Source: a virus
Virus record (IMG/VR): IMGVR_UViG_3300008108_000023
Coordinates: 91,209-155,208 of that record
Direction: 5' to 3' (one strand)
DNA length: 64,000 nucleotides
Shown: piece by piece, positions 8,281 to 59,172 of the stretch
How positions within the stretch are numbered: the stretch's first letter is position 1
Layout: each line of letters starts with the position of its first letter
Notes under the pieces: generated by a model
The model's database searches: none
What the model saw: only the letters and a program-made list of their open reading frames with translations
What the model was told of the DNA's origin: nothing
Translations under genes and position numbers: made by a program

Positions 8281-8482
8281 GTGTAGGGCAAGGAATCTCA
8301 GCCACACAAGTTTTATCAAGTGACGGAAAATAAACTGAGTAAGTACCTAAGTAGTAGTTTGTGTCGTAATAATATGGCATCACGACAGTACCTAAATTCA
8401 AGGTACCGCCAGTACAAGGATAAAATGTGATAACACCAATTTCACCATCAAAATTACCTGTGTTTATTTTTATTAATGCCAT
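1..8482 (-). CDS. Giant Thr-Pro repeat protein, probable virion fibre or stalk (3' end outside window)
   Basis: The minus frame is open from the ATG at 8482 to base 1, at least 2,827 codons without a stop. The first ~50 residues are unique, containing a GGTLNLGT motif and tyrosines, and end in [12 protein letters not shown]. Everything after is repeats such as [13 protein letters not shown], interspersed with [11 protein letters not shown] (left and middle parts) and TETPT (mainly 6960-8050). The minus strand is the coding one: the frequent Phe/Leu alternation in the plus frame is silent on minus (ACN Thr codons), and variation falls at minus wobble positions. One non-repeat island lies near 6155-6212. 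Such Pro/Thr repeats form extended rods, so a tail fibre or adhesin stalk is inferred. The unique head domain resembles that of the gene at 63139-64000. The C-terminal (tip) domain is not in the window. Confidence 0.85.
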
Positions 8483-8572
8483 TTAAATCTACAGTCTTAT
8501 CTATATCTATTTTTATTATAAAAATATACTCATTTATTCGGGTATTGTCAACGTCTATTTTTACAGTTTTTA

Positions 8573-13734: not shown

Positions 13735-13744
13735 GTTTTTTTAT

Positions 13745-13753
13745 AATAAATAT
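13745..13753 (-). promoter_or_regulatory. Late-promoter-like motif ATATTTATT
   Basis: Minus-strand ATATTTATT about 10 bases before the ATG of the structural gene at 12817-13734. It is one of eleven copies found just upstream of virion genes. Confidence 0.5.
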
Positions 13754-13758
13754 GAAAA

Positions 13759-15758: not shown

Positions 15759-15759
15759 A

Positions 15760-39755: not shown

Positions 39756-40068
39756 AATATAGGTTATACAATTCTACACTTCTTTTATAATCTTGTAAAG
39801 ACGTTGTGAGAGGAAAAGGTATTCTAATAACAAAATTATCAGGTATCTGAAATTCAACACTACCAGCGGTTGGATTTGCTTGTAATATTAACCAACCAAA
39901 TACTGGTGAACCATAATAATCTTGAGATATCTTATCGAATCTATCTCTACCTTTTTTATAAAACATATATCTGTCAGAAGGTTTTATTGGGATTTCAATA
40001 CCTGGTACAATCCTAAATTTACCATCTTCAACAAAAAACTGATATCTATCAAAATACTGTCTACTCAT
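39742..40068 (-). CDS. 53: Baseplate wedge protein gp53-like (LysM/tail protein X type)
   Basis: 108 residues. The motif KGRDRFDKISQDYYGSPVFG followed by WLILQANP is the LysM-like pattern shared by T4 gp53 and tail protein X. The C-terminus QIPDNFVIRIPFPL is the usual follow-on strand. It is shorter than T4 gp53 (196). It connects wedge to hub and may contact peptidoglycan-like material. It overlaps the 1,611-residue gene by one base and the hub gene by 14 bases. Confidence 0.75.
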   Translation of the reverse strand: MSRQYFDRYQFFVEDGKFRIVPGIEIPIKPSDRYMFYKKGRDRFDKISQDYYGSPVFGWLILQANPTAGSVEFQIPDNFVIRIPFPLTTSLQDYKRSVELYNLYYGEQ

Positions 40069-43000: not shown

Positions 43001-44903
43001 CTTGATAAGTATATATTGGTTCAGGTCTACCTAAAAACGTATTGTCTTGCCATCTAGCTTGGTTGTTCTCGCTAACTTTCAAATCATACGGAGGAAACCA
43101 CATAACCCTACCTCCATTATTACCTCTCTCACAGAATGGTAAATCATTGTATGTGAAACCAGGTGTATTAGATGTTCTCCATGCTAAGTTCTCAATTGAG
43201 AACATATATTTTTTAGCGTAAAATCCATCACCTGTGGGTGATTCAAATATGTTTGTTGAATTCTTTGCACCAAATGAGTTTTTAAAACTATTTTTTGCAT
43301 CATAGTTTCCGCTTGACATTGGTGCGATATTAATATTCCAAGGTCTGCTCTCACCACCCATTACACTATCATCAAATTTTCTGATATTAGCGGTTCTTTT
43401 CATTGTGTCTGAATAGTTCATATAAGACCTATCTTTGGTCCACACCCTACAATATTCAGCACCTGTTTCTTGTTTATACTTGTCAACAAATTTAATTGCG
43501 GAACCTCGAGACAACATACTGTCACCTTCTTTAAAAATTCTACTTGTTTGGTCAATAACATTACCAACGTGTGTTCTTGTGGCTTGACCATCTTTAGGCA
43601 TTGAATCCAAGATTTCTTGAGTTTTACCCAAAATTGAATCTTCTCTAAATCCGTATTTTGTTGAAATTGAATTGTTGTACGTATCACTTTCTCTTGATTG
43701 GAATTCCTCGTTCCATAATCCAATTTTGTTTTGTGAGTTCTTACTAATCCACGTCAGTTTACCACTAATTGGTCCACCTTGGGAAATATTTCTTTGTCTC
43801 TCGAATAACGCGGCTTGTACCGGGTCAAACATTAAACTTAAGAAGTAACTACTTTTAACCATGTTGTCATTAAAGTCTGACATGGTATATTTCACGTCTT
43901 CACTTCTATCGTCTCCAATATATGCGACACCTTTTGGTGCTTCTAATCCTAAAACAGTTTTTACCCCTTGAGCAAAACTATTCGCAAAATTGAAAATTTT
44001 TGATGACTGTTGTGACCTCGCTGTTGTTGTATAATTTGGAGCATATGTTGAATATGTTAATTGGTCAAATAATATTTGTTTCTGACCCTCTCCCATGTAT
44101 TCAATCATTAAATCGGAAGGTTTTCTTCCGAGTTTAGGTCTTCTTTGAATACCAACTAAACTTCCTAAAACACCAGTAACGTCTTGTAAAATAGCGCCGG
44201 CTTCTGTTTTTGGTGTTGGTCTATTTTCAATAGGGTTTCTTGGGTTGGTTAAATAATCGCCAGGTATTTCACTAAAAGGGAATTCAATACCTGCAACTGT
44301 TTGAAGAAAATCAACACCCTTTCCTAATAAACTTTTAGCAACGGTAATCTTATAATTTTTTTCAACTAAAGGTTCTCTACCTGTAACAATATTAATTGCA
44401 GTCGCGGTATTTCCACCTAACGCATCTAACGCCCTAACCCTACCTAATGTTGCGGATTCCAAATTTTGTTGTAATCTAGCAAAGACAGGTCCTTGTTTGT
44501 TTTCTCTAATGTTTTGTGTGGCGAATTTCATTAACCTCGAATCACTATCGAAGTTTTGGCCCGCCATAATACTAATTAAATTTGTTGTTTGGGGTTCGAA
44601 TGAATTTACATATCCAGCTGGATTTATACCACCTAATAATAAAGCTAAAGACGGTAAAGATGTGTCAGTATATTCTTCAATTGTGTTATTGGGTGGAACA
44701 TATAAATTGATAAAATTTTGTCCAAAATAAACCGCCCAATTTGTTTTAACGTCACCGGGGTCGACATTAGCAAAATTATTTAGATTCTGAACACTATAAT
44801 TCGCATCCGTGAACGTTTGAGGTCCATTCGGTCTATTCAGAGTTTTTGAAATTAAAAAGTCCCTGAAAGTTTTGGTGTTATTAAAATCTAAATATGTTGG
44901 CAT
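40068..44903 (-). CDS. Large baseplate/tail structural protein
   Basis: 1,611 residues. Around residues 1,120-1,185 it has a conserved-looking barrel: PVCVLRIGDFYHSKIVIRDV, then NISFDDGGQILWDLNPEGIG and VASV-type strands ending SINFIGGQG. This is a pattern I associate with tail/baseplate proteins of environmental T4-like phages. The C-terminal ~400 residues are helical and basic at the end. It lies between tape measure and gp53, in the region where T4 encodes gp48/gp54/gp27, but the exact equivalent is uncertain. Preceded by the CTATTTATA motif. Confidence 0.6.
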   Translation of the reverse strand: MPTYLDFNNTKTFRDFLISKTLNRPNGPQTFTDANYSVQNLNNFANVDPGDVKTNWAVYFGQNFINLYVPPNNTIEEYTDTSLPSLALLLGGINPAGYVNSFEPQTTNLISIMAGQNFDSDSRLMKFATQNIRENKQGPVFARLQQNLESATLGRVRALDALGGNTATAINIVTGREPLVEKNYKITVAKSLLGKGVDFLQTVAGIEFPFSEIPGDYLTNPRNPIENRPTPKTEAGAILQDVTGVLGSLVGIQRRPKLGRKPSDLMIEYMGEGQKQILFDQLTYSTYAPNYTTTARSQQSSKIFNFANSFAQGVKTVLGLEAPKGVAYIGDDRSEDVKYTMSDFNDNMVKSSYFLSLMFDPVQAALFERQRNISQGGPISGKLTWISKNSQNKIGLWNEEFQSRESDTYNNSISTKYGFREDSILGKTQEILDSMPKDGQATRTHVGNVIDQTSRIFKEGDSMLSRGSAIKFVDKYKQETGAEYCRVWTKDRSYMNYSDTMKRTANIRKFDDSVMGGESRPWNINIAPMSSGNYDAKNSFKNSFGAKNSTNIFESPTGDGFYAKKYMFSIENLAWRTSNTPGFTYNDLPFCERGNNGGRVMWFPPYDLKVSENNQARWQDNTFLGRPEPIYTYQDTSRSGQLSFKVVVDHPSILNLLVREYFKGMSDEESENYINAFFAGCEELDFYALIRRFAQLDTNDIKLIQSFLNQGQDPETIKQYKVTTEYPTETTPTNTTTQGNEADSKAVDEVIIKLKYENDIPGPRDKVDTTQNYTQLYKAYKDQKQAYINELGAALNTLTGLSQTDTQVKTEKSFIFGDANHVITQSDIDAQKTKIGDYFDEADVSFNKYESSLNSLISDISGKTAETIRFQILSSCSSVATNDYNERLSLRRSHSVIQDIFDRLSAVGGKKEWQIKWPTNLNLVNKNNSDNDKEIIQKGEPIVIVKEYSTKDFGFEHDTKIIVESVNYGETLTGTQPDKDCVNKDFVRVPKLKQYSPIAFYCRQTAMSLKYNNKSEKKQPETPAPQPPITKIEENGQVVVNPPTRKPAIDPLKRIIAKTLSECFYFKKLEDSDPVVFSSLKEKLKYFHPAFHSTTPEGLNARLTFLQQCIRPGDTIPIKGISEDSDVRARNTSFGPPPVCVLRIGDFYHSKIVIRDVNISFDDGGQILWDLNPEGIGVQPMIASVTLSINFIGGQGLSKPVERLQNALSSNFYANTEMYDERSIATNETIGGKKAEEFTREFLEDLNKTYGNAINKTNQSQNTKNVKGGNYMGALDGNSIKYTDIIKSVFASTESYFDKYQDTYNKVYTKYGKDITALLFKGEYRPINQYDIYTSTSPTPGKTLSLLGLYKKTQELTVYTTGLKTGLANFLNNSSSTYLVDMVGFNKEMTGSILTDTNVKLKDFITKEIIENKINELTVSTQILDELEKSRNQLISDLDRVNFVIKNGKDSTVQDSVVKSVAISGFTSDLLYNEYSTCIDYIETNAPKLVDGLSTNITFLNPTIQSADFEFMMKQLLYDKVDAFISELKDPSLYKDPLKNQLKKRLNKFVEKPEEKKFKLTKFKKRKSDKEIKFGISSTTDETNQTIIDEANQIFSTSNEVKDKLNYYRPQ

Positions 44904-44931: not shown

Positions 44932-46887
44932 TTAATTAAATTGAGGTGGTAAGGTAAAAGATGTGTAATCTAAATCCGATGGTATAAAACTTTGAGACAT
45001 ATCATTAGCCAATGATGGACTATTATTAATCGCCCTAACAACATTATCAACAACGGCTCCGTCTGATTTAACAGTATGTGTATGGTTAACATTTACTGTT
45101 GAAGTTGTTGGTGTGGTAGATGATTCTTTTCCTTTTAATCTGTTCTCTAAATCAGATTCACTCACACCCATACTTTTAGCAACTAAAGCTTTAGCAGGTG
45201 CAACCGCTTCGCTAACCATTTTGGAAAATAAACCTTCGTCTGTTTTTTGTAAACCACCTAAACTTGTCTTTTCTTTTAAATTTCTAGATAATTCTAAACC
45301 TTCAATGTATTTGTCAAACTCAGCCAGAGGTTTTCTTATTTCTGCGGCGGCTTGTACTTTAGCAACCGTCAATAACGCACTTATGTCTTTTTGCATATTT
45401 TGAGTTACCGTGTATTGGTCTCTCGCAATATCCTCAACAGACATTTCTTCAAACGCTTTTTGATTCTCCAATAACCCTTTTGCAATCGTAGGATTTAGTT
45501 CATCCAAAGCGACTTTGGTATCTTTTAATCCCATCTTATCTGCTAAAGATTGAGGAATATCTATAACCATTCTACCACCTTCCATTTTGGAGATATTGGT
45601 TAAGAATTCTTTTTCTTTTTCATCTATTTGTAAACCTGAGGATAATAACGCGGTAGCCGCCGATGACCTTTCCGCAGCTTTAATTGCGGTTTTGGACATT
45701 TCCTCCATACTCATACCCATTTGGTCAGCTAAAGCTTTAGATTTTCTTAAGTTTGCACCTGTAATTTCAAATCTACCTAATTCGGAATTATATGTCGCTA
45801 ATGAACCCGCAACACCTATCATCGCATCTTGTAGACCACCGGCATCATTTGTTGCCATATACATTAGTTTCAATGGGTCGTTGAAATCTCCAATCGCTCC
45901 ACCTATAGCTTGTAATTCTGCGGACAACGCAATTGCTTGGTCGGGGTCAAAAAGTTTCTCCGCCATTGATTTAACCTTTTCAATGTTCATGTTAAATTCA
46001 ATAGACTTCTGAACCATTCTGGTTAATCCCTCAACACCATTTTTAAATCCAATAGTGTTTAATTTGTCCATATTAGCACCAACATCTGCTACCACCTTTC
46101 TCGCGTTTAAACCAAGAGTTAATGAACTTTTACCCGCCCTGTCAATTTCTTTGATTGCGTCTTTTGCTCCAATACCTACTTTTTCAAACGAATCCAGTGC
46201 AGCTCCCAATTTAGATAAATCACCGTAAAAAGCTCTAGCGGTTTTTTGTGATTCTTGTAAAACATCACTACCAAATGTTGTCATCTTACCTGTTTGTTCA
46301 ACCATTTGTACCGCATAATCTTTTACATCCTCAAATCCAAATCCCATAGCGGTAGCGGCTGGTAATGTTTCAAATATATTGTTTCTAAATTCTCTTGATA
46401 ATTCACCTGTTAATCCAAGTTCAGAATTAATTTTATTTCTTAACTCTACTTCTTGTGTTTGTATTTTTATTAATTCATCACCAAGAAAAGATACCATCTC
46501 TTTGGCGCCTTTAACACCTAATTGAACCATAAAATCAGGTAGATTTTTTGATTCTCTTGCAATTTTACCTATTGTTTCAGATATGGTACTAAATTGGAAT
46601 ACAGTATCTTTTGATAATGATAATGATGAAACGGGGTTTGAATACCCTAAGTCCGCAATATTTTGAGTTTTAAGTAGGTCTGTAGCAAAAGCGGCTGTTT
46701 TACTACCACCACTTCCTGTATTTCCTCCACTTGATGGTTCTTTTTGATTATAAAATGACCAATAAGTATCTACTTGACCCATTAAAGAACTGTTATTCTT
46801 CACGGATTCAAATTTCAAGAACTCGTTTTTGAATTGAGTATAATTTAAACCTGCTCTTAATTTGGATACTTCTTCGTTAATTGTCAT
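44932..46887 (-). CDS. 29: Tail tape measure protein
   Basis: 651 residues (T4 gp29 is 590). Long helical, Ala/Lys/Glu-rich composition with few aromatics. It includes alternating hydrophobic stretches (GVEGLTRMVQKSIEFNMNIE, ALSAELQAIGGAIGDF) typical of tape measure proteins, and a glycine/serine linker (GGNTGSGGSK) at ~55-65. The C-terminus returns to a small folded tail. It is placed immediately after the tail chaperone-type genes. Sets the length of the tail tube. Confidence 0.82.
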   Translation of the reverse strand: MTINEEVSKLRAGLNYTQFKNEFLKFESVKNNSSLMGQVDTYWSFYNQKEPSSGGNTGSGGSKTAAFATDLLKTQNIADLGYSNPVSSLSLSKDTVFQFSTISETIGKIARESKNLPDFMVQLGVKGAKEMVSFLGDELIKIQTQEVELRNKINSELGLTGELSREFRNNIFETLPAATAMGFGFEDVKDYAVQMVEQTGKMTTFGSDVLQESQKTARAFYGDLSKLGAALDSFEKVGIGAKDAIKEIDRAGKSSLTLGLNARKVVADVGANMDKLNTIGFKNGVEGLTRMVQKSIEFNMNIEKVKSMAEKLFDPDQAIALSAELQAIGGAIGDFNDPLKLMYMATNDAGGLQDAMIGVAGSLATYNSELGRFEITGANLRKSKALADQMGMSMEEMSKTAIKAAERSSAATALLSSGLQIDEKEKEFLTNISKMEGGRMVIDIPQSLADKMGLKDTKVALDELNPTIAKGLLENQKAFEEMSVEDIARDQYTVTQNMQKDISALLTVAKVQAAAEIRKPLAEFDKYIEGLELSRNLKEKTSLGGLQKTDEGLFSKMVSEAVAPAKALVAKSMGVSESDLENRLKGKESSTTPTTSTVNVNHTHTVKSDGAVVDNVVRAINNSPSLANDMSQSFIPSDLDYTSFTLPPQFN

Positions 46888-46890
46888 ATC

Positions 46891-46899
46891 AATAAATAT
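46891..46899 (-). promoter_or_regulatory. Late-promoter-like motif ATATTTATT
   Basis: Minus-strand ATATTTATTGATATG right before the tape measure start. It overlaps the last base of the small upstream gene. Confidence 0.45.
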
Positions 46900-47042
46900 T
46901 ATTTAGGAGTGTTTTCTAATTCAATAATGTACTCCACGTAATATCTACGTATGAAAACTGGCATGGTGATAATGTCACCATAACTAAAACCTCTTTTGAT
47001 TAAAAATAAAATTTCGTCTAACTGTCCTTTCTTATAAGCCAT
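46899..47042 (-). CDS. Small tail assembly protein (overlapping frame)
   Basis: 47 residues from the ATG at 47042, which overlaps the stop of the gp26-like gene by 11 bases (ATGGCTTATAA). The sequence has a helical start (MAYKKGQLDEILFLIKRGFS) and a MPVFIRRYYVEYI core, like small proteins next to gp26-type baseplate genes in T4-like phages. Its place just before the tape measure is where tail assembly chaperone second frames occur in other phages. An upstream in-frame ATG at 47081 is judged a shadow. Could be gp51-like; uncertain. Confidence 0.6.
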   Translation of the reverse strand: MAYKKGQLDEILFLIKRGFSYGDIITMPVFIRRYYVEYIIELENTPK

Positions 47043-47781
47043 AGAAAGGGCGAAAAAACTCAACCCCGAACCCAATTTCAACTTGGGTGTCTTCTCCTGA
47101 CGGGGTTTTTACTGTTTTTGTTAAATCTAATCCTGGTTTATTTTCTTTTAGAAATTTTCTGAAATCTTGAGAGTCTTTAATTGGTAATCTCTCAACAAAA
47201 TTATGTATGTTCATCATATCTCTATTGCCGGCAACAGACTTAATCATCATTTCTAATTGTTTGGTGACAACAGGTGCAACACCTTGACCATTCCAACTCT
47301 TTCTTAAATCATCAAGTTCTTTCTCTTGTTTTGGTGTTAAAAATTTAAATGTGATTTGAACTTTTGATTTTTCCATAAAATATGGATATTCACCGTTTGA
47401 ATCTGATTCTAAATTAAAATCTTTGAATTTTAATTCACTCATATCAACAGAAATCTCAAAATCCTTTTCAGTTTTTGGGTCAGTTAAATAAAATTTATAT
47501 TCGGGACCAAAAGCGGTGTTTCTTAAAAATATTAACACTGCTTGTCTATCTTCTTCAACAATGTCTTCAATTTGAATATCTCTATCTAATATTTTTCTTC
47601 TAAGTAATTCATCAATTACACCATTTGTCGCAATTAAATTTTGCGCGGATAAAATATTTTCATCCGCAGCCGTTAAGTATGCAACTTTAAGTGATTTCTT
47701 TTTATTTTGATAGTGTATACCTCTTGAAGGTAGTTCAACAACATCATAAGCGATTGTTGGGTCGACTCTAAATTCTTCCAT
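47032..47781 (-). CDS. T4 baseplate/hub assembly protein (gp26-like) or tail chaperone
   Basis: 249 residues. It matches the T4 baseplate protein family by pattern: DVVELPSRGIHYQNKKKSLK, LTAADENILSAQNLIATNGV, LLRRKI. The C-terminal half (ITFKFLTPKQEKELDDLRKS) is helical, and the last residues FFRPFYGL are hydrophobic. T4 gp26 is 208 residues. Probably a chaperone-like component needed for hub or tail tube initiation. It is preceded by a strong terminator after gp19 and overlaps the 47-residue gene. Confidence 0.75.
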   Translation of the reverse strand: MEEFRVDPTIAYDVVELPSRGIHYQNKKKSLKVAYLTAADENILSAQNLIATNGVIDELLRRKILDRDIQIEDIVEEDRQAVLIFLRNTAFGPEYKFYLTDPKTEKDFEISVDMSELKFKDFNLESDSNGEYPYFMEKSKVQITFKFLTPKQEKELDDLRKSWNGQGVAPVVTKQLEMMIKSVAGNRDMMNIHNFVERLPIKDSQDFRKFLKENKPGLDLTKTVKTPSGEDTQVEIGFGVEFFRPFYGL

Positions 47782-47823
47782 ATTTGTTTTATTTAATAAC
47801 TAGTATAATTTACAAAAACTTAT

Positions 47824-47857
47824 AAAAAAAGTAAAGGTCTCCTTTTGAGAGACCTTT
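47824..47857 (-). terminator. Intrinsic terminator after gp19
   Basis: Arms AAAGGTCTC (47833-47841) and GAGACCTTT (47849-47857) form a 9-bp stem with a 7-base loop. On minus this is followed by ACTTTTTTT. It ends the gp19 transcript. Confidence 0.88.
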
Positions 47858-47882
47858 TATTGACAGATTTTTTATTATTTGA

Positions 47883-48254
47883 TTAGTAAACTAATATACA
47901 TCTATCCATGTCTAACATTTCTAATTCAATATCTTTTTTGTAACCAGCTGCGTAACCCATACGACCTGTAACTGATTCAGCGTGTAGACGGAACCACTCC
48001 ATCAATGCTTGTGCCGCTGAAGGACCAATAGGGTCTTTGAAGGTTACTCTTATTTCATTCCATTCAAATCTACCAGCTACGTATGTTGATGTGTTGATGA
48101 AAGGAATTGCAACTGAGTTAATTTTTGCACTAGGTCTTGCACTTGAGGTTACGTACCACTCGTTAATACCCAATGATGATGGGAATCTAAGTATGAATCG
48201 GTTAACTCTCTTCGGTTCGTAAGGAACCGGCATTTTCATTAATAAATCTGCCAT
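47883..48254 (-). CDS. 19: Tail tube protein gp19-like, short at the C-terminus
   Basis: 123 residues against 163 in T4. The core is clear: VPYEPKRVNRFILRFPSSLG, then INEWYVTSSARPSAKINSVA, the strand FEWNEIRVTFKDPIGPSAAQ, the helix ALMEWFRLHAES and YAAGYKKDIELEMLD. It ends at CILVY, before the final beta strands usual in this family. Subunits form stacked hexameric rings of the inner tube. A terminator follows within about 30 bases, so no longer frame follows in this strand. Upstream is the 348-base gap with the parS-like site. Confidence 0.85.
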   Translation of the reverse strand: MADLLMKMPVPYEPKRVNRFILRFPSSLGINEWYVTSSARPSAKINSVAIPFINTSTYVAGRFEWNEIRVTFKDPIGPSAAQALMEWFRLHAESVTGRMGYAAGYKKDIELEMLDMDRCILVY

Positions 48255-48295
48255 GTCAATATTTGTTTTTTAATTTTTTTATTTTTAATCTTTCT

Positions 48296-48304
48296 TATAA
48301 ATAT
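48296..48304 (-). promoter_or_regulatory. Late-promoter-like motif ATATTTATA
   Basis: About 42 bases upstream of the gp19 ATG, followed by AGAAAG. A copy with a longer leader than most. Confidence 0.5.
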
Positions 48305-48377
48305 GTTGTATATGAAAAAACAAAAAAAATCTTCTCAATACTTGATTTTGTGAAAATTATTTCGTATTTTTTCCATA

Positions 48378-48474
48378 CTAGTACTAGATGCTAGTAAATT
48401 AAGAACTAGATTAAAGAAACTAGAATAACTATAAAGAAATAAACTAGATAAAAATAAACTAGAACTAGAACTAG
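48378..48474. repeat. Cluster of nine CTAG sites (AACTAGA iterons)
   Basis: CTAG occurs at 48378, 48384, 48391, 48406, 48420, 48444, 48459, 48465 and 48471. Six are in AACTAGA; the first three form an imperfect palindrome (TACTAG...CTAGTA). Given this AT-rich background fewer than one CTAG would be expected in 97 bases. It is non-coding and resembles iteron or regulator-binding clusters. Confidence 0.65.
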
Positions 48475-48553
48475 AATACTGGTGCATATACTGGGTAATT
48501 TATAATTTTATTTTTTTTATATTTGGTAATTCCGTAGGTCACACTATATTATA

Positions 48554-48571
48554 ATGTTCCACGTGGAACAT
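48554..48571. promoter_or_regulatory. parS-like palindrome TGTTCCACGTGGAACA
   Basis: Perfect 18-bp palindrome. The inner 16 bases (48555-48570) fit the bacterial ParB-binding consensus TGTTNCACGTGNAACA. It lies between the CTAG cluster and the sheath terminator. No parA or parB gene is in the window. Confidence 0.6.
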
Positions 48572-48577
48572 AAAATA

Positions 48578-48601
48578 GGGAGGGTTTCCCCTCCCCTTTT
48601 T
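48578..48601. terminator. GC-rich intrinsic terminator after sheath gene
   Basis: GGGAGGG (48578-48584) and CCCTCCC (48589-48595) form a 7-bp stem with a 4-base loop. On minus it begins 8 bases past the sheath stop and is followed by TATTTTA. A T-run on the other side allows plus-strand use too. Confidence 0.82.
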
Positions 48602-48602
48602 A

Positions 48603-51458
48603 TTAGATATTATCAAATGATGCTCCTGTTGGTGTGATTATGAATTCAACATCGATAAATTCAAGAGCTCTTGTTGGTTTAATGTAAATTTTACCTCTCA
48701 AAGTATTAGCGTCAATATCTTCAGGGTCGTTGGAAACCGTTACACGGAATTCATACAAACCTCTTTCTCTCTTAATTGCGTCTAATATCGGGTTAACCAA
48801 TCTCAAAAACTCATTACGAACTTGTTCGTCGTTTTGTTCAAATAACAATCTTACCGCTACTGCTGAAATTAATTTTCTTGCTCTTAACAGTAATCTTCTT
48901 ACGTTAATTCTATCCAAAGCTGATTCACGTACTTGAAGTGTTTTATTACCCCAAATGATTGTACCGGTATCCGCAAATGTTGCGATAGGGTTAATTCTCG
49001 CTTTGTAAAGGTCATCTCTCTCATCCAAAGTTAATTTCTTATAAGCTTTGATTGAGTTTACTAAACCTCTTGAATAACCCGCTACCGCGAACCAAGGGAA
49101 AGATACGTTATCTGTTAATGCTATATTTCTCAATACTTCACCTGTTGGTGGTAAGTATAATTGTGTAGCGTTGTCTGCGTCTCTAACTTGAATCCAAGGC
49201 CAGTAAACCGCTGAGTAGTTACTATCAATTGCTACGCCGTCCAAAGCGTCTATTACTTCATCCGCTGTACCGTAGTTTGGTGATGAAATCACATAAAGTG
49301 AATCCGCTCTATCTTCTTCAATCATATCAATTGCGTAAGATGTTAATGAACTGTGGTCATAGAAGTTGATACCTGGTGTTGCGAAGATGTTTACATCAAC
49401 AGCTTCAGGGTTTGCGAAGGTATCAATACCTTGAGTGTAAGCGTAGTAGTCAGAGTTTCCTGATACTGTACTAAATACACCACCATTATTAGTGTTACCA
49501 CTTGTGTAAGTATTTTTACCAAAGATGTATCCATCACCGTAGGTTCTCACATTTCTGTAGATATCCCAACCGTCAAATCCACCAGCCGCTGCGAATGTGA
49601 ATTTACGATAATTGATATTTGTTAATACGTTATTCGCTCCACCTGTTTGACCCTCTAAATCATACGACGTGGTTAAGAAGGTTGTTCCTGTGATTGTAGA
49701 TGCGTTTGTTGATAAGTGGAAACCCTTAGTTGTTCCAGCTGCTGATGTTCCTTTGAATTTAAACAAGTCTCTATCGTATGTTACTGCGTTTGTTGGACTT
49801 GATAAACCAAAGTATGTTCTTCTTACTTTGTCACCTGAAGATAAAACAGGTGTTCCATCGGCTTGATAAGATGTAGTATCACCAGCGTTATAGAATGTAG
49901 TCTTGTACATCACCGAACCTAAAGTACTTGAACCAAAAGATGTGTTGTTTGTAAATCCTTTAAATCCTGCAGGATATGCGTCGGTTGGGTGATTATCAGC
50001 CATTGACAACATAATGTATCTTGAACGTAATTCATATTCACCATCAGATGTACCAACTTTTTTAGCAACATATCCTGGTAAATCTGGATTCATATTACAT
50101 CTACCAAATTTTTCAAGTACAACTAAATTATCGTCTGTATCATTAAAGTCTCTAACGATTAAGTCAAAGTCACCAGTGTTTACATCAATATTAATAATTG
50201 AAACTTTTACTTCGTAGTTTGCAGAATCACCATCTGATACTGTGATTACATCAAATAAATCATCAACTTCACCACCTCTAACCTCTGATACAACAGTTGG
50301 TGTCATTGGGGTATCCCAAGATGTTTTAAAGTCGTTACCAACATGTTCGAAAACTTCTGTTAAACTTAAACCTCTAATTAAACCTTGTTCATATGCTCTT
50401 TGTAAGTAATTTGGATAAGATTCAAAAACATACACAGGTACATCACTTTTTAATTTGTCATAAACATCGGTACCAAAAACTTTTGTTACATATTTTGATG
50501 ACGAAGAGTCCATACTACAAGTGAATGATTTTGGTCCACTTGTTGAACCTGTAACATTAACTGTAAATTCAGCTAATGGATTTGTAGTGATTCCTGAACC
50601 TGTAACCACAAAATTTACATCTGCGGTAGTTTCCAAGTTTAATGTTTGTCCATTGTAAGAACCTCTTGGTCTGAACGCTAAAACCACTTGTCCATCATAC
50701 GCCGTGTTCAATGTTCCATAGTATGTGTACTTAGTCACATCAAATCTACTCGCACCGCTGTTATAAACAAATAAGTAAGAATATACTTCAGAACCTGTGG
50801 TGTTACAAAGTTTATTGAACCATTCCTTATTGTTGTAATTACTTGCGTTATTCAAACCTGTTAAAGGAGAAACTTCTTCAAGTGATGATGTTTGACCACT
50901 TGTTCCTGAAGTTGGTACTTCACCCATCACAAACCATTGTCCATGGTTAGATGATGTGTTACCACTAAAGTTTGCTACAATATATTCTGTAATATAATTT
51001 CCATCTACAGATATTTTATCTGATAGTTCACTATAAATCGTACTTGCTGTAATTGTTGTGGTCGATGCTGACATTGTTAAACTTGTGGTTGTTCCACTAA
51101 GAGCCCCCAATGTAACCCCACCAATTGTTTTAACACCATAAGTTTTGACAGGTAAATAACCCGTTAAACCTAATATTCTTGTTACAAACATTTGGTTAGA
51201 TTCTTCTAAATAAGATTTTGCGAAATAAGGTAATTCATATTTTGGATTGTTATTGTTGTCTTTTAACGGACTTGTTCCCCCAAAATATGACTTGAATTCG
51301 TCAAAATTAGTTATTAATACAGGTTCAAAAGCGGGACCTTTTAAGGTTTCACCCACCAAACCTAATGTGCTCACACCAACACTTTGTGCTACGAATGTTA
51401 AGTCTTTTTCAGATGTATATACACCCGGAGATACAAAAACTCTATTTGAATTTGCCAT
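48603..51458 (-). CDS. 18: Tail sheath protein gp18-like
   Basis: 951 residues, against 659 in T4, so it probably carries a large surface insertion (about residues 100-550). The N-terminus VFVSPGVYTSEKDLTFVAQS with GLVGETLKGP is typical of sheath proteins. The C-terminal ~250 residues (RVNVRRLLLRARKLISAVAV-like helix, FRVTVSNDPEDIDANTLRGK, ALEFIDVEFIITPTG) form the conserved domain that makes the contractile mesh. It drives tube injection. Preceded by ATATTTATTGATAAAG (51497-51505) and ended by a strong terminator. Confidence 0.9.
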   Translation of the reverse strand: MANSNRVFVSPGVYTSEKDLTFVAQSVGVSTLGLVGETLKGPAFEPVLITNFDEFKSYFGGTSPLKDNNNNPKYELPYFAKSYLEESNQMFVTRILGLTGYLPVKTYGVKTIGGVTLGALSGTTTSLTMSASTTTITASTIYSELSDKISVDGNYITEYIVANFSGNTSSNHGQWFVMGEVPTSGTSGQTSSLEEVSPLTGLNNASNYNNKEWFNKLCNTTGSEVYSYLFVYNSGASRFDVTKYTYYGTLNTAYDGQVVLAFRPRGSYNGQTLNLETTADVNFVVTGSGITTNPLAEFTVNVTGSTSGPKSFTCSMDSSSSKYVTKVFGTDVYDKLKSDVPVYVFESYPNYLQRAYEQGLIRGLSLTEVFEHVGNDFKTSWDTPMTPTVVSEVRGGEVDDLFDVITVSDGDSANYEVKVSIINIDVNTGDFDLIVRDFNDTDDNLVVLEKFGRCNMNPDLPGYVAKKVGTSDGEYELRSRYIMLSMADNHPTDAYPAGFKGFTNNTSFGSSTLGSVMYKTTFYNAGDTTSYQADGTPVLSSGDKVRRTYFGLSSPTNAVTYDRDLFKFKGTSAAGTTKGFHLSTNASTITGTTFLTTSYDLEGQTGGANNVLTNINYRKFTFAAAGGFDGWDIYRNVRTYGDGYIFGKNTYTSGNTNNGGVFSTVSGNSDYYAYTQGIDTFANPEAVDVNIFATPGINFYDHSSLTSYAIDMIEEDRADSLYVISSPNYGTADEVIDALDGVAIDSNYSAVYWPWIQVRDADNATQLYLPPTGEVLRNIALTDNVSFPWFAVAGYSRGLVNSIKAYKKLTLDERDDLYKARINPIATFADTGTIIWGNKTLQVRESALDRINVRRLLLRARKLISAVAVRLLFEQNDEQVRNEFLRLVNPILDAIKRERGLYEFRVTVSNDPEDIDANTLRGKIYIKPTRALEFIDVEFIITPTGASFDNI

Positions 51459-51496
51459 TTTTAATTTGTTTGGTTAATTAATTTTATTTCTTTATC

Positions 51497-51505
51497 AATA
51501 AATAT
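51497..51505 (-). promoter_or_regulatory. Late-promoter-like motif ATATTTATT
   Basis: Upstream of sheath as GATATTTATTGATAAA, a 16-base identity with the plus-strand copy in front of gp13 (58029 onward). Confidence 0.6.
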
Positions 51506-51555
51506 CTTTGTTTTTAGCAAAGATTCCCTTGATTTTTTTAAAAATGGCACTTATG

Positions 51556-51776: not shown

Positions 51777-52004
51777 TTATAACATACTAATCTCCGTCAT
51801 ATCAACGGTAATGTTATTACAAATTAATAAATTACCATCAATTATAAAATTGTCAGTTCTTTCTAAAACCAATAATGATTCAAGATGACTAGTATCAACA
51901 CTAAGACCATAGATGTCATTATCAACAACCAAATTGATTATTAAATTTTCATATATTTCAATATGAGATAATGTTTTTTCGTATAAAAATTCTTGTATTG
52001 TCAT
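51777..52004 (-). CDS. Small hypothetical protein
   Basis: 75 residues (MTIQEFLYEKTLSHIEIYEN start), acidic and Ile/Leu-rich, single domain by eye, no family recognised. It follows the gp15-like fusion with a 5-base gap and probably shares its transcript. The convergent small gene ends at 51772. Confidence 0.55.
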   Translation of the reverse strand: MTIQEFLYEKTLSHIEIYENLIINLVVDNDIYGLSVDTSHLESLLVLERTDNFIIDGNLLICNNITVDMTEISML

Positions 52005-52009
52005 GTTGT

Positions 52010-54544
52010 TTAATTTATTGGGGTTACTGTTGTGATTGTTGCTCCAGAACCAAATCCTGTACCGGTATTAAGTGTCGTGTCTAAAGTTCCATCTGAAAAT
52101 AAACGTACAATGTTTCCTACCGATGTGCCGTTATATGATGTAAAATTACCACTAATTAGTATTTTACCATTTGTTTGAACAACAATACTGAGTACATGAT
52201 TATTAAATCCGGTTCCAATACTAAATGTATTATCAATAGTTCCATCAGAATTTAGTCTAACTATCCTATTAGATGTTACACCACTATACGATGTGAAAGC
52301 TCCCCCGACCATTATTTTACCACTTGAAAGAGTCGAGACAAAATAAACACTATTATTAAATCCGGTTCCAATAATAAATGTATCATCGATAGTTCCTCCG
52401 GAATTTAATCTAATTATTCTATTAGATGTCACTCCACTATATGATGTAAAATCTCCACCAACGACAATCTTACCATCTGATTGTACCGATGACATGTATG
52501 TGTAGGCATTAAATCCCGTACCGACTGTAGTTGTAAAACTAGAATCGTGACTCTTATCGGAATTAAGTCTCTCAATTCTTCTTGTGGTCATACTACCACA
52601 AAGAATCATTTTACCATCTGATTGTAAAGAAACATCTTGAACAGTTGAGTTTGCATCATAAGTAGTAGACGTTGAACCACTAAATGTATTATCAATTGTT
52701 CCGTCAGAATTTAACCTAATAATTTTATTCGCCGACGTGCCATTATATGATGTAAAATATCCACCGATTAATAGTTTTCCATCAGATTGGGGTACAACAA
52801 ATTTTGTGATACTATTGAATCCCGTTCCGATACTGAATGTATTATCGATTGAACCGTCTAAGTTTAATCTAATTATATAATTGGACGATACACCACTGTA
52901 TGTTGTAAAATAACCCGCACCGTAAATTTTGTTATTATATATTATGTGATTTTCTAAGAAATTATCAAATCCGGTTCCACCGCTAAATGAACTATCAACT
53001 GAACCATTTGAGTTTAATTTAATTATGTCATTATATAATGTGCCATTGTATAATGAGAATCCACCAGAAATTAATAGTTTATCATCCACCATCAATGATG
53101 GTGTTGGGGTGGCCGATGGTGTGACAGAACTATTGGGAGTAATGGATGGTGTTACTGATTGAGTTGGTGATGGTGTCGGTGAAGACTCAATTGTTACCGA
53201 AGGGGTAACTGTGGGTGTTGAGGTTAAAGTAGGGGTTGGTGTAACCGATGATGTAAGTGACGGAGTAATTGACGGTGTTACTGAGGGGGTAACTGAAGGT
53301 GTTACAGTTATGGTTGGGGTGATAATAGAGGTTGAGGTTAAAGTAGGGGTAACCGTAGGTGTTGATGTTGGGGTTATTGATGGTGTTACAGATGAAGATG
53401 GTGTTATTGAAGGTGTTGGGGTCGGTGTTATTGGTATTGTAAAAGTTGATTGTGTTGTAAAATCATATCTAAATTTTGTTTTAGACGACGTATTAATATC
53501 TACCGAACTAAAATTATTAACCAAAGTTAAATTACTAAACGTACCATCGACAGTATATTGTGTAGTACCACTTAATTGATTTGGTTCAATAAAAATTTTA
53601 ACAGGAATTGATATTGAACTACCAGTCACAGTTAATAAAGTGTCAGTAAATGAAATTTCAACCGTCTTATCTACCTTATTTGTTGCGGTTGCGGTGTAGT
53701 CCGCAACGATTGAACCACTACTATAATTTGATGATATTGTTATTGAGTTTTCAATTTTTTTTATAGATGGAATTGACCTTAAATCGGGTTCCACCATGGT
53801 AATACTTCTGTTAATTGCAGGAGAAACTTCAAATTCTTCATCATCAATTAAGAATCCTAACATTGTAAACCCGTAATTTTGAATGTAGAATCTTCTACCA
53901 TCTAAAGTATCCATCGGAGTATTATCTTCGATTCTATCTAATACAATTGGGATATAATGACCTTTTACTCGAGTGTATGCTTGACGAGATGAAAACTTTT
54001 GTAAAACCTTTTGATTGAACTTATTTATATCTCTAAATTTTGTACAAACAATAGTTACATCAAAACTAATATCAACCGCAATTGGTTGAGGTATTTTGTA
54101 TATGTCCGCACCCATTTGATTTCCATCCCAAGTCGGAACCGATGCATAAAAAAAGTCTCTTCTATCAGGAATAGTTCTTTGAATAGATGGGTTTGTACCT
54201 AACTGAACTTCAGGTTTTCTTACAACAGCAATAAATGGTAACTTAATATTTCCATCTTCATCACTAAAAGACCAATTGTTGGTATACTCACCCCATCTTT
54301 GAATTGTGAGAATTTTTGGAATCATTGGTATTTGGTCCCCGTCAGATATTACTTTAAAATTTTCTTTTACAAATTCTAACATACCCAAATCAAGGTCGTC
54401 GTGCAATATCGAATCAGGAAGAAAAGTATCAGATTTAATTATTTCTTCTAATAATTCTTTTCTTCTACCGGTAATTGCAGGACCATCCGCGTTTTGGTTT
54501 ACACCGTATACTTTAATATCTTTTTTTCTTTTTGGTAATCCCAT
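52010..54544 (-). CDS. 15: gp15-like tail terminator fused to Thr-Pro linker and beta-propeller
   Basis: 844 residues, about three times the size of T4 gp15 (272). Residues 1-~265 fit the gp15 sheath-terminator family: [20 protein letters not shown], then [20 protein letters not shown] and [20 protein letters not shown]. Residues ~270-370 are Ig-like. Residues ~370-490 are TPTP/TPS repeats. Residues ~490-840 hold seven copies of a ~50-residue motif (SDGKILIGG.FTSYSG...[11 protein letters not shown]) of the delta-60/DUF5122 type, enough for a seven-blade propeller. The gene overlaps none of its neighbours. If the gp15 reading is right, the propeller would be displayed at the head-tail neck. 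Confidence 0.78.
53090..53440 (-). repeat. Thr-Pro/Ser-Pro linker repeats inside the gp15-like fusion
   Basis: Minus strand codes [10 protein letters not shown]-type repeats ([16 protein letters not shown] units). Kin to, but more Ser-rich than, the 1-8280 array and very like 63585-63785. Confidence 0.8.
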
Positions 54545-54546
54545 AA

Positions 54547-55059
54547 TTAAATTCCTCTAAATTCAGATTCTTGTGCAATTGCACAGGTGATAGTTCTATA
54601 ATGAGGTCTAAAACCAAACATATTATGTTTATTATCGGAAGTAACTTTTCCATCGTTTACCACCGTATAGTATCTAATTCTTTCTTCCGATTCGGGGTAC
54701 CCAATAAAATCACCATATCTAATATCAATACCCATTTCTTCTAAGTGTTTTATATAAACTGAAATGGTCATATTACCGGGTTCCAAATATCTATTTACAC
54801 CTTTAGTATATGAATTGTTTTTAGGTTCTTCAATTTTAACCAATCCGAAAAATTCGGTAGGTGGTAAAAATTTAATTTGGTCTTTACCAACTTCACCGTA
54901 TACATCATCAGTGTCGGTTTTTTGTCTATCTACTCTAAATAAAACTAATTTCATACCTAAATCACCATGCAAGTATTCTTCCCCTAACTGAACATTTAAA
55001 TCAAAATCAGTTTGAGAAAAAAATTTACTTAATCTGGTTATCGGTAGTTTATTCTTCAT
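54547..55059 (-). CDS. 14: Neck protein gp14-like
   Basis: 170 residues (T4 gp14 is 256). The pattern [20 protein letters not shown], with the phrase [13 protein letters not shown] and later [20 protein letters not shown], resembles the gp14 order (protein-receptive strand, then a phrase like EGDLIYFP, then a Tyr-rich strand). The C-terminus ([16 protein letters not shown]) closes the fold. It precedes the gp15-like gene by two bases, matching the T4 order gp14-gp15. Would form the neck ring with gp13. The assignment is moderate. Confidence 0.6.
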
Positions 55060-55112: not shown

Positions 55113-56867
55113 ATGCAGAGTAAGATTCCTGAGATAGAAGCAAGGGAAATTTTGTCCACTTACGAAGGTTTTAACAACCAACTAATTGAGTGGAAAAGAA
55201 AGTTATCTGAAGTTAAAGGTTTTCAGTTAACAAGACCCCAAGCTGAGTATGTTTTAAAATACCATGAGGTAGTTCCTCGGGTTGCAAAAAAATATATCAG
55301 TATTGTTGATGGATTTGCAGACAAGTTAATGGAATCTAAACATCTAACAAAACCACCCGAAAAAATATGGTGTGAAAAGTTATTATGTGAAAGTGATATG
55401 GCATATCACATATGGGGTAAAATTTTTGAAACTGAAAAAAATTCAGCTATGTGGGTTCCTAAATCCGCAATCATCCAAGAGGAAAAAAAATTAAACAGAG
55501 AGATTGATTATTCATCTTACGATAACCGACCTCCATTACCTCACCAAAAAGAAGCTATTGAGAAATTATTGGCCAACGACAAATATATTCTCGCTGATGA
55601 TATGGGACTGGGTAAAACCACATCAGCGATTATTGCCTCTTTAGAAAGTGGAGCAAAAAAGATTTTAATAATATGCCCAGCATCTCTAAAGATTAATTGG
55701 CAGAGAGAAATTGAAAATTACTCAGATAAGAAAACTTTAATTGTTGAAGGTCGTAAGTGGGGTTCAACATTTAATTACTATATTATAAATTATGATATTG
55801 TAAAAAACTATCACTCAACTGAAACACCTGAAATTGGTCAAGAAAATACTAATTTAATTGCCAATGAAAAATTTGATTTGGCAATAGTAGATGAAGCTCA
55901 TTACATATCAAATACTACCGCTCAAAGAACTAAATTAATAAATGATATATTAAAAAATATACCAAAAGTTTGGTTACTTACAGGTACACCCATGACCTCA
56001 AAACCAATCAATTATTATAATCTATTAAGAATCGTAAATTCAAATGTTACGTTAAATTGGCAAGGTTATGTTAAAAGGTATTGTGGTGGTTATCAATTCA
56101 CGGTAAACAAAAAGAAAATATGGAATACTAACGGTGCAACAAATTTAGATGAACTTAGAATGAGAACTAAAAATCTTGTTTTAAGAAGAATGAAAACTGA
56201 CATATTAGACCTTCCCGATAAAATTATCACACCAATATTCTTAGATTTAAAGAGTACATACTATGATGAAGAACTTGAGGACTTTTTAAGAATTACAAGT
56301 GAATCTAAAAACAAAGAATCATTATCTGTTACTATTAATCGTTTAATGAAAGTTAGACAAATTATCTCTCAGGAAAAAATTGATTATACTTGTGAGATTA
56401 TTGATAGATGTTTAGAACAAGGTAAAAAGGTTATTGTGTTTACGAACTTCACCATGTCTTTAGATATGTTACATGAGAAATACAAAAAGAACTCGGTGGT
56501 TTTAGATGGTAGAATGTCTAAAGAAAAAAGACAACAATCTGTTGACCGTTTTCAAAATGAAGACAAAGTAAAAGTGTTTATTTCAAATATTATTGCAGGT
56601 GGAGTTGGTATCACCTTAACCGCTGCGGAATGTGTGATTATGAATGACTTATCATTTGTTCCTGCACATCACAGTCAAGCAGAAGACAGAGCGTTTAGAT
56701 ACGGACAAAAGAAAAATGTATTAGTGTATTATCCGATTTTCGAAAATACTATTGAAAAGATAGTGTATAATATGCTTCAAAAGAAAAAGAATATTATCGA
56801 CCAAGTAATGGGTGATGGAGATTTCTCAGAAAGTTTTGCACAATCAATTCTTAAAGAGATTCTTTAA
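55113..56867 (+). CDS. uvsW: SNF2/UvsW-type helicase
   Basis: 584 residues. An N-terminal non-helicase domain (1-~140) precedes the SNF2 core: Q-like PHQKEAIEKLL, Walker A DDMGLGKTT (162-170), DEAH box (260-263), motif III TGTP (290-293), then a helicase C domain with GGVGITLTAA and SQAEDRAFRYGQKK. The terminal motif is SNF2-type, so it may be UvsW-like or a RapA-like enzyme. Likely processes recombination intermediates or forks. It is on the plus strand and its last 24 bases overlap the end of the antisense gene. Confidence 0.85.
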   Translation: MQSKIPEIEAREILSTYEGFNNQLIEWKRKLSEVKGFQLTRPQAEYVLKYHEVVPRVAKKYISIVDGFADKLMESKHLTKPPEKIWCEKLLCESDMAYHIWGKIFETEKNSAMWVPKSAIIQEEKKLNREIDYSSYDNRPPLPHQKEAIEKLLANDKYILADDMGLGKTTSAIIASLESGAKKILIICPASLKINWQREIENYSDKKTLIVEGRKWGSTFNYYIINYDIVKNYHSTETPEIGQENTNLIANEKFDLAIVDEAHYISNTTAQRTKLINDILKNIPKVWLLTGTPMTSKPINYYNLLRIVNSNVTLNWQGYVKRYCGGYQFTVNKKKIWNTNGATNLDELRMRTKNLVLRRMKTDILDLPDKIITPIFLDLKSTYYDEELEDFLRITSESKNKESLSVTINRLMKVRQIISQEKIDYTCEIIDRCLEQGKKVIVFTNFTMSLDMLHEKYKKNSVVLDGRMSKEKRQQSVDRFQNEDKVKVFISNIIAGGVGITLTAAECVIMNDLSFVPAHHSQAEDRAFRYGQKKNVLVYYPIFENTIEKIVYNMLQKKKNIIDQVMGDGDFSESFAQSILKEIL

Positions 56868-57998
56868 GATATTCATCATGAAATCAATGTCCTCTTGTTT
56901 TTGAGAAATACTCTGAATTATTTCAACCCACACATCGTGGATTTTATCAATATCAAAATTTTCACTACTTGAAGGCAAACTCACACAAACTTTTCTTTCT
57001 TCTTTTATAAAATTTAAGTTTGTGTCTTCAGAAACTTCAAGAGAAAACTCTACATCGTTTTTTGAACAATACATGAAAAACTCAAAGAAAATTTTTGAGT
57101 TAAAAATATCATCAATTTTTTCTTCCATTAGTATATTATTTTTGTTATATGTATACCAACCATTTAATTCGGTTATAATGGTATCTTCTTTAAGATGTAA
57201 AAAAATCATTCTCGTTGGGTTCACAGTATGAAATCTAAAATCATAGTTCAATGATACCAAAACTAAATAATCAATATTTTTACCAATGTAATCCCTTACA
57301 TCTATAATATTTTTAAAACTATCACCTTGAAATTTAACAACCTTGCTTTGGATTCTTTTAACTTTTGTATTATCATCGTTGTTGACCGTGAATAAATCAC
57401 AACCGTTAACCATGTCAATCGAAGAACCCCTCACCAATGATGTCCTGTAAATCTTAGCTGTTTTTACATTTTTTTTAAAATAATGTTCAATACACAATTC
57501 ACCATATGTACCCGTACCAATCGTTTTGGATGCAATATGAAAAAGTTCATATAAAAAATCGCTAGGACCAACAGTCCTATGGTCTATCAATATTTTGTCT
57601 TTGTATACTCGAAACCATTTAAAATAGTTTTTTATTTCTTCTTCAATATAACTTGAACTATTACCATCAAAAGTAATTTCTTTTAATGGTACGCCATTTA
57701 GATTGTTTATTCCCTTAAGAAAATAATCTTGAAAAATCCATTCGTTTAATTTCTCAACAATTTTTATGTTGACAATATAGTTCGTATTAAACTGATTTAC
57801 AGGAGACCACGACCCCCTTGGGGTTAAAACACCATATGTCCCATTTTTTTGACAAAAACCATATTGGTTTTTACTCAAGTAGCATTCCTTAAAAACCTCT
57901 CTCCATTCACTCAAAAAAAGGTCCTTGATAGGTCCCTTTATTGTGCAAATCTTTTTTACGTGGTTTTCTATGTTTCTTAAGTTTCCGGTGGAATACAT
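56844..57998 (-). CDS. Nuclease-like hypothetical protein (antisense insert)
   Basis: 384 residues from the ATG at 57998, chosen over 58100 because the extension overlaps the gp13 leader. It contains SSIDMVNGCDLFTV followed by RIQSKVVKF, reminiscent of a PD-(D/E)xK core with QxK in place of ExK. A helical N-terminal domain and a beta-rich C-terminal half follow. It lies between two plus-strand genes, convergent with the helicase (24-base overlap) and divergent from gp13, with different orientation. That suggests a mobile or acquired cargo gene such as a restriction-like or homing nuclease. The function is inferred from one motif. Confidence 0.55.
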   Translation of the reverse strand: MYSTGNLRNIENHVKKICTIKGPIKDLFLSEWREVFKECYLSKNQYGFCQKNGTYGVLTPRGSWSPVNQFNTNYIVNIKIVEKLNEWIFQDYFLKGINNLNGVPLKEITFDGNSSSYIEEEIKNYFKWFRVYKDKILIDHRTVGPSDFLYELFHIASKTIGTGTYGELCIEHYFKKNVKTAKIYRTSLVRGSSIDMVNGCDLFTVNNDDNTKVKRIQSKVVKFQGDSFKNIIDVRDYIGKNIDYLVLVSLNYDFRFHTVNPTRMIFLHLKEDTIITELNGWYTYNKNNILMEEKIDDIFNSKIFFEFFMYCSKNDVEFSLEVSEDTNLNFIKEERKVCVSLPSSSENFDIDKIHDVWVEIIQSISQKQEDIDFMMNILKNLFKN

Positions 57999-58029
57999 TA
58001 ATATTTGGAATATTAAAACAAATATACAG

Positions 58030-58038
58030 ATATTTATT
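58030..58038 (+). promoter_or_regulatory. Late-promoter-like motif ATATTTATT (plus strand)
   Basis: GATATTTATTGATAAA precedes the gp13 start at 58054, in the same orientation as the gene. The only plus-strand structural gene has the motif on plus. Confidence 0.6.
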
Positions 58039-58053
58039 GATAAATCAAAGTTA

Positions 58054-59172
58054 ATGTCAACAACTGTCATTTCAAATACTGAAAAACAAAAATTGTACAC
58101 CCAAGTGTTTCATTTATTGGGTTTACCCGTTAGGGGAGTTGAACTCACAGAAGAACAAATGGACACCTTTTTAGAGTTGTCAGTATCTGAATATGAACAA
58201 TATGTAAGTGATTGGTTGATTGAATCACAGTGGTCAGCACTCGCTGGTCTTAATGTGGATACACAATCATTAACAAGAGCGTTTACCACAAGGAGTTTAG
58301 ATTACGAGACACAATACACCCATTCTTACTCTAAGATTGTAGGTCTACAGACGGGTGGTAATAGTGAATTAAAAAAAGATTATATTTCATTATCTGCGAA
58401 CACACAAACTTATGTGATTCCTGCTGGTAGAGAGATTAATGAATTATTGTGGTTCTCAAGAGCGGAATTAACAGACTCAATTGTTGACCCATTTTTAGGC
58501 GGTTTTGGTGGTCTTGGGGGTGTTGCTTTTGGTGGTGTCGGTGGATTTGCACAACAAGGAGCTTCGGGTTCTTATTTCTTATTACCAGCTTATGATTTAT
58601 TATTAAGAATGGGCGATAGAAATATTAAAAACCGATTAATTGGTGGTGACTTAACATATAGAATTACGGCAGGACCAAACGGAACAAAAATAGTTCACCT
58701 ATACAATGTACCAGGTGGTAGATTTGATTTTGGTTCGATTCAAAACAATAGACAAAAAGTGTGGTATTGGTATTATGATACCACAGACCCCGATACTTGT
58801 TTAGACAAAAATAGTGGTATTGTAAAATTACCTTCTGATGTTGAAACCGAAGAACTTACTTGGGACATGTTAAATAAACCAGCACAAAACTGGGTTAGGA
58901 AATATCTTATCGCATATTCAAAAGAAGGTTTAGGTAGAATATGGGGTAAATTCTCAGGTGATTTACAAGTACCTGATAGTTCTGTTAAGTTAGATTATTC
59001 AACATTGTTACAAGAAGGTAAAGATGAAAAATTAAAACTTATTGAGGAATTAATGAATCGTTTAGAAAGATTAAGACCCGATAAGTTAATGGAAAGAAAA
59101 GGAGCGGAAGCGGAAAACCTAAACAAAGCACTTAAGTACAGACCTTTCCAATCACCATTTAACGTAATCTAA
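58054..59172 (+). CDS. 13: Neck protein gp13-like
   Basis: 372 residues from the ATG at 58054 (T4 gp13 is 309). The N-terminal helical block (LYTQVFHLLGLPVRGVELTE, then QMDTFLELSVSEYEQYVSDW) and the strand QTYVIPAGREINELLWFSRA are typical of gp13 neck/connector proteins. A glycine-rich loop (FLGGFGGLGGVAFGG) is inserted near residues 140-165. The last 70 residues are helical. It seals the portal with gp14. The upstream in-frame ATG at 57925 is rejected. It ends adjacent to the DNA polymerase gene (convergent). Confidence 0.75.
   Translation: MSTTVISNTEKQKLYTQVFHLLGLPVRGVELTEEQMDTFLELSVSEYEQYVSDWLIESQWSALAGLNVDTQSLTRAFTTRSLDYETQYTHSYSKIVGLQTGGNSELKKDYISLSANTQTYVIPAGREINELLWFSRAELTDSIVDPFLGGFGGLGGVAFGGVGGFAQQGASGSYFLLPAYDLLLRMGDRNIKNRLIGGDLTYRITAGPNGTKIVHLYNVPGGRFDFGSIQNNRQKVWYWYYDTTDPDTCLDKNSGIVKLPSDVETEELTWDMLNKPAQNWVRKYLIAYSKEGLGRIWGKFSGDLQVPDSSVKLDYSTLLQEGKDEKLKLIEELMNRLERLRPDKLMERKGAEAENLNKALKYRPFQSPFNVI

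Follow-up and report, generated by a model that had tools for sequence, protein, structure and literature searches.

A predicted contractile-phage tail terminator of the gp15 type bearing an exchangeable seven-bladed β-propeller

The window analysed here is a 64,000-nucleotide stretch (positions 91,209 to 155,208) of IMGVR_UViG_3300008108_000023, a virus contig of 155,208 bases. A single open reading frame of 844 codons, starting with ATG, fills positions 54544..52010 of the window on the minus strand. The interval 52010-54544 given in a preliminary description of this DNA is exact, and the gene lies on the minus strand; the plus-strand frame over the same interval is riddled with stops. The motif AGGA lies 8 bases 5' of the ATG, which itself stands 2 bases past the stop of a 170-aa gene (54547..55059, minus strand). 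Gene order places this 170-aa gene at the position of gp14. It had no family match and no similarity to its positional counterpart, and we did not annotate it as gp14 because sequence support is absent.

The neighbourhood is that of a contractile-tailed phage. Downstream of the 844-aa gene lie a tail sheath gene (48603..51458, minus strand; Pfam and PHROG sheath matches), a tail tube gene (47883..48254, minus strand; PHROG 4542, E 1.5e-13) and a gene for a T4-type baseplate protein, with a baseplate wedge subunit further along. Upstream, a head-tail adaptor gene of the Ad2-like, gp13 type is encoded on the plus strand (57925..59172; PHROG 211, E 1.1e-9), and its product is 25% identical to the counterpart in Microcystis phage Mel-JY01 (E 6e-24). 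The nearest named sheath is also that of Mel-JY01 (33% identity); among named polymerases, the nearest come from Salinibacter and Nostoc phages. Directly behind the 844-aa gene is a 75-aa open reading frame (51777..52004, minus strand), described below.

From the N- to the C-terminus, the 844-aa protein comprises a domain of ∼252 residues, an all-β domain, a Thr/Ser-Pro linker and seven DUF5122 repeats. Residues 1-252 (53789..54544, minus strand, as are all segments of the gene) form a conserved core, in which column identity averages 75% over 33 relatives. In sequence searches of Pfam, PHROGs and the PDB, this domain had no match, and the PF16724 and PHROG family models gave no direct match to the 844-aa protein. 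An AlphaFold2 model built from 24 homologues was of moderate confidence (pLDDT 66.8). When 350,542 PDB chains were searched with this model, the P1 tail structure 8jan, in which the terminator gp24 is modelled (PMC10304247), ranked first (2.3e-5). Matches 2-5 were T4 gp15 (3e-5 to 1e-4), all of the top five had a probability of 1.00, and other phage connectors and collars ranked lower. Annotated tail sheath stabilizers were among the top fold matches in the viral structure library BFVD.

Profile comparison linked the domain to annotated gp15 proteins through an intermediate set, composed of proteins of Mel-JY01, Flavobacterium phage immuto and an uncultured phage (LR756508). According to hhalign, the window family scored 36.8 against this set (best of 100 column shuffles, 22.3), and the set scored 50.1 against annotated gp15s, one PF16724 member included (shuffled best, 19.0). 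The direct comparison of the window family with true gp15s scored 38.8 (shuffled best, 30.2). The protein stretches aligned between families were 32 and 20 letters long, and the sequence link of the core to T4 gp15 appears to be remote. Finally, the gene lies just upstream of the sheath, tube and baseplate genes, an order that matches those in Mel-JY01 and Bacillus phage SP-15. The preliminary description had assigned the N-terminal domain to the T4 gp15 type and had named a structural comparison with gp15 as its test. The assignment stood: P1 8jan and T4 gp15 make up the top five PDB matches, and fold search, profile chain and gene order agree. Together, these data support the annotation of residues 1-252 as a predicted tail terminator of the gp15 type, related only remotely to T4 gp15. 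We use the label gp15-type, as opposed to PF16724 member, because the PF16724 model itself gives no match. A PF16724 search for a second gp15 in the same phage was silent, and it was equally silent on control sequences.

Residues 484-844 (52013..53095) matched Pfam DUF5122 (PF17164) in seven stretches (E = 5.6e-82; 270 bits against a cut-off of 27). The repeat period is 51 residues, with a self-identity of 32% at lag 51 and of at most 13.5% at any other scanned lag. An AlphaFold2 model of this region from 19 aligned homologues had a pLDDT of 92 and a pTM of 0.89. Its strand list corresponds to seven blades, with the first (6-12) and last (353-360) strands positioned for the usual closure, blade count and closure being taken from strand order and not from coordinates. 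Foldseek searches against the PDB returned β-propellers of many functions, none of them close, and no solved close homologue with a known ligand was among these matches. The seven-bladed lectins PLL/PHL of Photorhabdus gave an E value of 2.8e-4 over the whole sequence and 0.25 for the best stretch. Designed trefoils scored alike, and we set this hint aside because repeat composition may produce such scores. Many other large proteins encoded on viral contigs (L245-L290, L292-L329) also carry DUF5122 propellers, sometimes with Thr/Ser-Pro linkers or LamG-like ends.

Between core and propeller lie two segments. Residues ∼264-369 (53438..53755) were predicted to form a seven-stranded, all-β domain (pLDDT about 70-88). 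The Ig-like identity first proposed for it found no proving match in family or fold searches: there was no Pfam match, and a fold search with the whole model gave only weak Calx-β matches. It evolves fast, with identities of 48-79% between proteins whose cores are 84-99% identical. Residues 371-483 (53096..53434) constitute the linker, in which 36 of the 113 residues are Thr, 26 are Pro and 25 are Ser. In relatives, the linker varies in length or is missing.

Eleven near-identical contigs preserve the fusion of these domains in one unbroken reading frame, and so do two diverged lineages, L027 (816 aa) and L104 (870 aa), across which the frame has been kept over a dS of about 1. The propeller itself is under purifying selection (dN/dS 0.13-0.14). 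An in-frame ATG stands at the propeller edge. It is not preceded by a ribosome-binding sequence, L104 has no Met at this point, and promoter-like sites are fewer than in shuffled sequence. We therefore rejected separate expression of the propeller, for which neither a ribosome-binding sequence nor a conserved Met was found, and an internal start appears unlikely. In one further contig, L112 (IMGVR_UViG_3300017917_001687, 8001-10396), the gp15 and β domains run into a stop where the linker begins, and the remainder, linker and propeller, is encoded in the -1 frame. The cause may be an indel that disrupts the frame, or else a frameshift site. As the frame is broken in L112 only, programmed frameshifting was discarded as a general rule. 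Overall, three further elements of the preliminary description hold: the Thr-Pro linker, which is evident from composition and is Ser-rich as well; the seven-bladed propeller, on the strength of the Pfam match and the high-scoring model; and the encoding of all domains as one protein, with no separating start or stop supported.

A profile-guided scan of viral contigs in IMG/VR identified at least 574 relatives of the core; no relative turned up when cellular genomes were scanned. Across more than 500 of the IMG/VR relatives, the gp15 core is strongly conserved while the C-terminus varies. Some proteins carry the β domain alone (364-373 aa), and others the β domain with a bare linker (395 and 412 aa). 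A third kind has a domain between two linkers (598-664 aa) that is BetaGal_ABD2-like, for which Pfam is only suggestive (E 0.04-0.9). A further kind, of 944 aa, has two LamG stretches (Pfam E 3.4e-23), and the propeller proteins are of 816-870 aa. More distant relatives have a different β module of about 165 aa, and one of them, L278, is 267 aa long and nearly devoid of an extension. Most relatives have no propeller, and the tip is therefore dispensable for tail assembly.

The eight C-terminal labels require 10 changes when placed on a tree of 75 distinct cores, where the three propeller rows occupy three separate positions. Two comparisons show the differences at the nucleotide level. Contig L088 lacks both the tip and the 75-aa gene. 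Its flanks are for the most part 96-100% identical to those of the gene in the window (55260-56259 and 46010-51509), and its gp15 core is 84-94% identical. Between the window and L104, the core has diverged to a dS of 0.98 but the propeller only to 0.27, and the raised identity spans 53083 to about 51834, then drops. The propeller and the 75-aa gene thus appear to have moved together between lineages. According to these computations, tips have been exchanged between related phages, the propeller moving from lineage to lineage. A very recent change of tip was considered and rejected: cores that are 99% identical as protein still differ by a dS of about 1, although the L088 flanks are close to those in the window.

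The 75-aa gene matched no family in family searches. It occurs behind the gp15-propeller gene in each of the four lineages that have one (the window, L104, L027 and L112), and it was absent behind the other gp15 tip types in all cases examined. A wider scan of viral contigs for homologues returned the same contexts, apart from one in L294 (3353-6192). There, an 84-aa homologue (43% identical) lies directly behind an unrelated 851-aa gene, whose product stands alone and has 14 DUF5122 repeats, enough for two propellers, and whose neighbours look non-structural. Most other propeller genes are without a 75-aa gene, and we discarded the idea that it accompanies DUF5122 propellers generally. The simplest inference from this distribution is that the 75-aa protein is a partner of this type of propeller, as a candidate chaperone, assembly factor or subunit.

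The gp15-type core, the intact fusion, the propeller fold, the exchange of tips, the purifying selection and the linkage of the 75-aa gene were all established computationally. On balance, we favour a reading in which six replaceable adhesins project from the tail-terminator hexamer at the neck of an aquatic contractile-tailed phage. The conserved cores would assemble into the hexamer usual for terminators, which closes off the sheath and tube and joins the tail to the head. The β domain and flexible Thr/Ser-Pro linker of each subunit would hold an outer module, here the seven-bladed propeller, and six tips would then surround the neck of the virion, presumably facing outwards. The terminators of P1, XM1 and Milano are hexamers in which a C-terminal arm enters the top sheath ring (PMC10304247, PMC10457771, PMC10491603). 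As the C-terminus lies in this ring, an extension beyond it should point outwards there. At about 3 Å per residue, the 113-residue linker could reach ∼30 nm if extended. The 75-aa neighbour, inherited with the propeller, may help it to fold or assemble, or may be a subunit. Polysaccharide on or around the host is the probable ligand of the tips, and binding it would aid adsorption; the phage would probably have sticky arms at the neck in addition to those at the tail tip. Polysaccharide is our best guess because lectin-like LamG and other β modules share the site in relatives, and because other phage propellers are proposed adsorption domains (PMC4901313).

Other readings of the tips deserve consideration. 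They could be general anchors to a matrix, such as mucilage, biofilm or particles, which would concentrate phage near hosts and leave recognition to the baseplate fibres. The occupation of one site by tips of unrelated folds and the many relatives without a tip are consistent with such anchoring, as is the report that the lactococcal neck structure is non-essential for infection (PMC6669499). However, host-range selection would also account for outer parts that evolve fast and are often exchanged, and we regard a role confined to anchoring as possible but rather unlikely. A regulatory or structural device in the manner of whiskers, which would hold or release fibres, sense conditions or stabilise the neck with no host binding, is suggested by the neck position and by T4 fibritin, which acts in fibre attachment and in environmental control of infection (PMC3797505). 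PF07921, the fibritin C-terminal domain, had no match in the 844-aa protein or in three near-identical records, the longest of 288 kb, which would be in keeping with a substitute for whiskers as the preliminary description suggested. Nevertheless, that search is weak, as a diverged fibritin would escape it, and LamG and unrelated domains at the same place misfit a single conserved fibre-holding contact. We consider a whisker-like device improbable.

Two further alternatives concern the protein itself. The virion might retain the gp15 core only, with the arm cleaved, or with the propeller made separately and secreted or used elsewhere. The frame break in L112, the relatives that end in a bare linker and the ATG at the propeller edge point in this direction, but the missing ribosome-binding sequence, the missing Met in L104 and the retention of the frame over a dS of about 1 leave this explanation with little likelihood. 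Finally, the N-terminal domain might be another neck protein, such as a head-closure protein. Its one phage match by sequence, a weak one, was to a Vibrio phage 'head-closure protein' (E 0.2), direct family matches are lacking and the model is of moderate confidence. Against this, terminators head the fold list, the profile chain reaches gp15 and the gene adjoins that of the sheath; we judge this assignment very improbable.

The display of adhesins by a terminator, the reading that we favour, resembles several known systems in part. The predicted core is like T4 gp15 (PF16724; PDB 4HUD/4HUH) and P1 gp24 in its fold, in its position before the sheath and tube and in a remote profile similarity. 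T4 gp15 has 272 aa and no displayed module. By comparison, the window protein has an additional ∼580 residues, which make up the β domain, linker and propeller. Extended gp15s already exist in databases, in Vibrio phage V09 (434 aa), Campylobacter phage CPt10 (456 aa) and Flavobacterium phage immuto (463 aa). Their extensions are of roughly 150-250 residues, and the immuto sequence is without a propeller, LamG or a Thr/Ser-Pro arm.

The neck passage structure (NPS) of lactococcal phages (936 phages, TP901-1) likewise has a constant N-terminal neck anchor and exchangeable C-terminal carbohydrate-binding modules (PMC6669499). It differs in that these are siphophages, and in that the anchor is a separate, non-essential BppU-like collar protein and not the tail terminator. 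In an NPS protein, a coiled coil comes after the BppU-like N-terminal domain; the window protein instead has a terminator-like domain, a β domain and a Thr/Ser-Pro linker. By analogy, it may work like an NPS without being one. The XM1 gp40 collar spikes, the Milano gp13 collar and the T4 fibritin whiskers are also neck appendages of contractile phages or have glycan-binding-like domains (PMC10457771, PMC10491603, PMC3797505), but they are separate proteins on neck rings, with no fusion to a terminator. The phi11 receptor-binding protein and phiKZ gp131C contain β-propellers, seven-bladed in phiKZ, that are proposed adsorption domains (PMC4901313). Unlike the propeller described here, they are located at the baseplate, and no relation to DUF5122 was seen. 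In the open-access literature searched, which leaves out most subscription papers, we found no account of a gp15 that ends in a propeller or a lectin-like tip. Modular neck adhesins and extended gp15s are already known; a terminator that itself serves as the platform for exchangeable tips was not found described.

The tip of the tail is where phage adhesins are normally looked for. If the favoured reading is correct, an essential structural ring now serves in binding, and does so at the other end of the tail. As adhesins, terminator tips would offer a clear place to seek host-range or matrix-binding modules in uncultured aquatic phages. The propeller and the 75-aa gene form a small cassette whose partnership is testable by co-expression. 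We also advance, tentatively and with some doubt, a broader idea: that in a large group of aquatic myophages the tail terminator may be a general neck display platform, on whose six subunits tips of unrelated folds are swapped as cassettes that change what the neck binds, the propeller cassette including a dedicated 75-residue partner.

Two observations concern other genes of the tail region. In the window, the tail tube gene is 39 codons shorter than in its relatives, about 100 of which encode a protein of 162 aa; the missing codons lie near the 3' end. The full-length gene occurs even in contigs that are otherwise identical to the window, and 27, 35 and 38 codons are missing in three other near-identical contigs. 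All of these deletions (the window was compared with L076, L078, L080 and L081) are in frame and share a common 3' breakpoint; they may be either an assembly error or real variants. In addition, the tail and baseplate region encodes proteins of 2007, 1611, 1414 and 1374 aa on the minus strand (33732-44903 and 8573-21644). These proteins have no PHROG match and are candidate fibre or tape-measure proteins.
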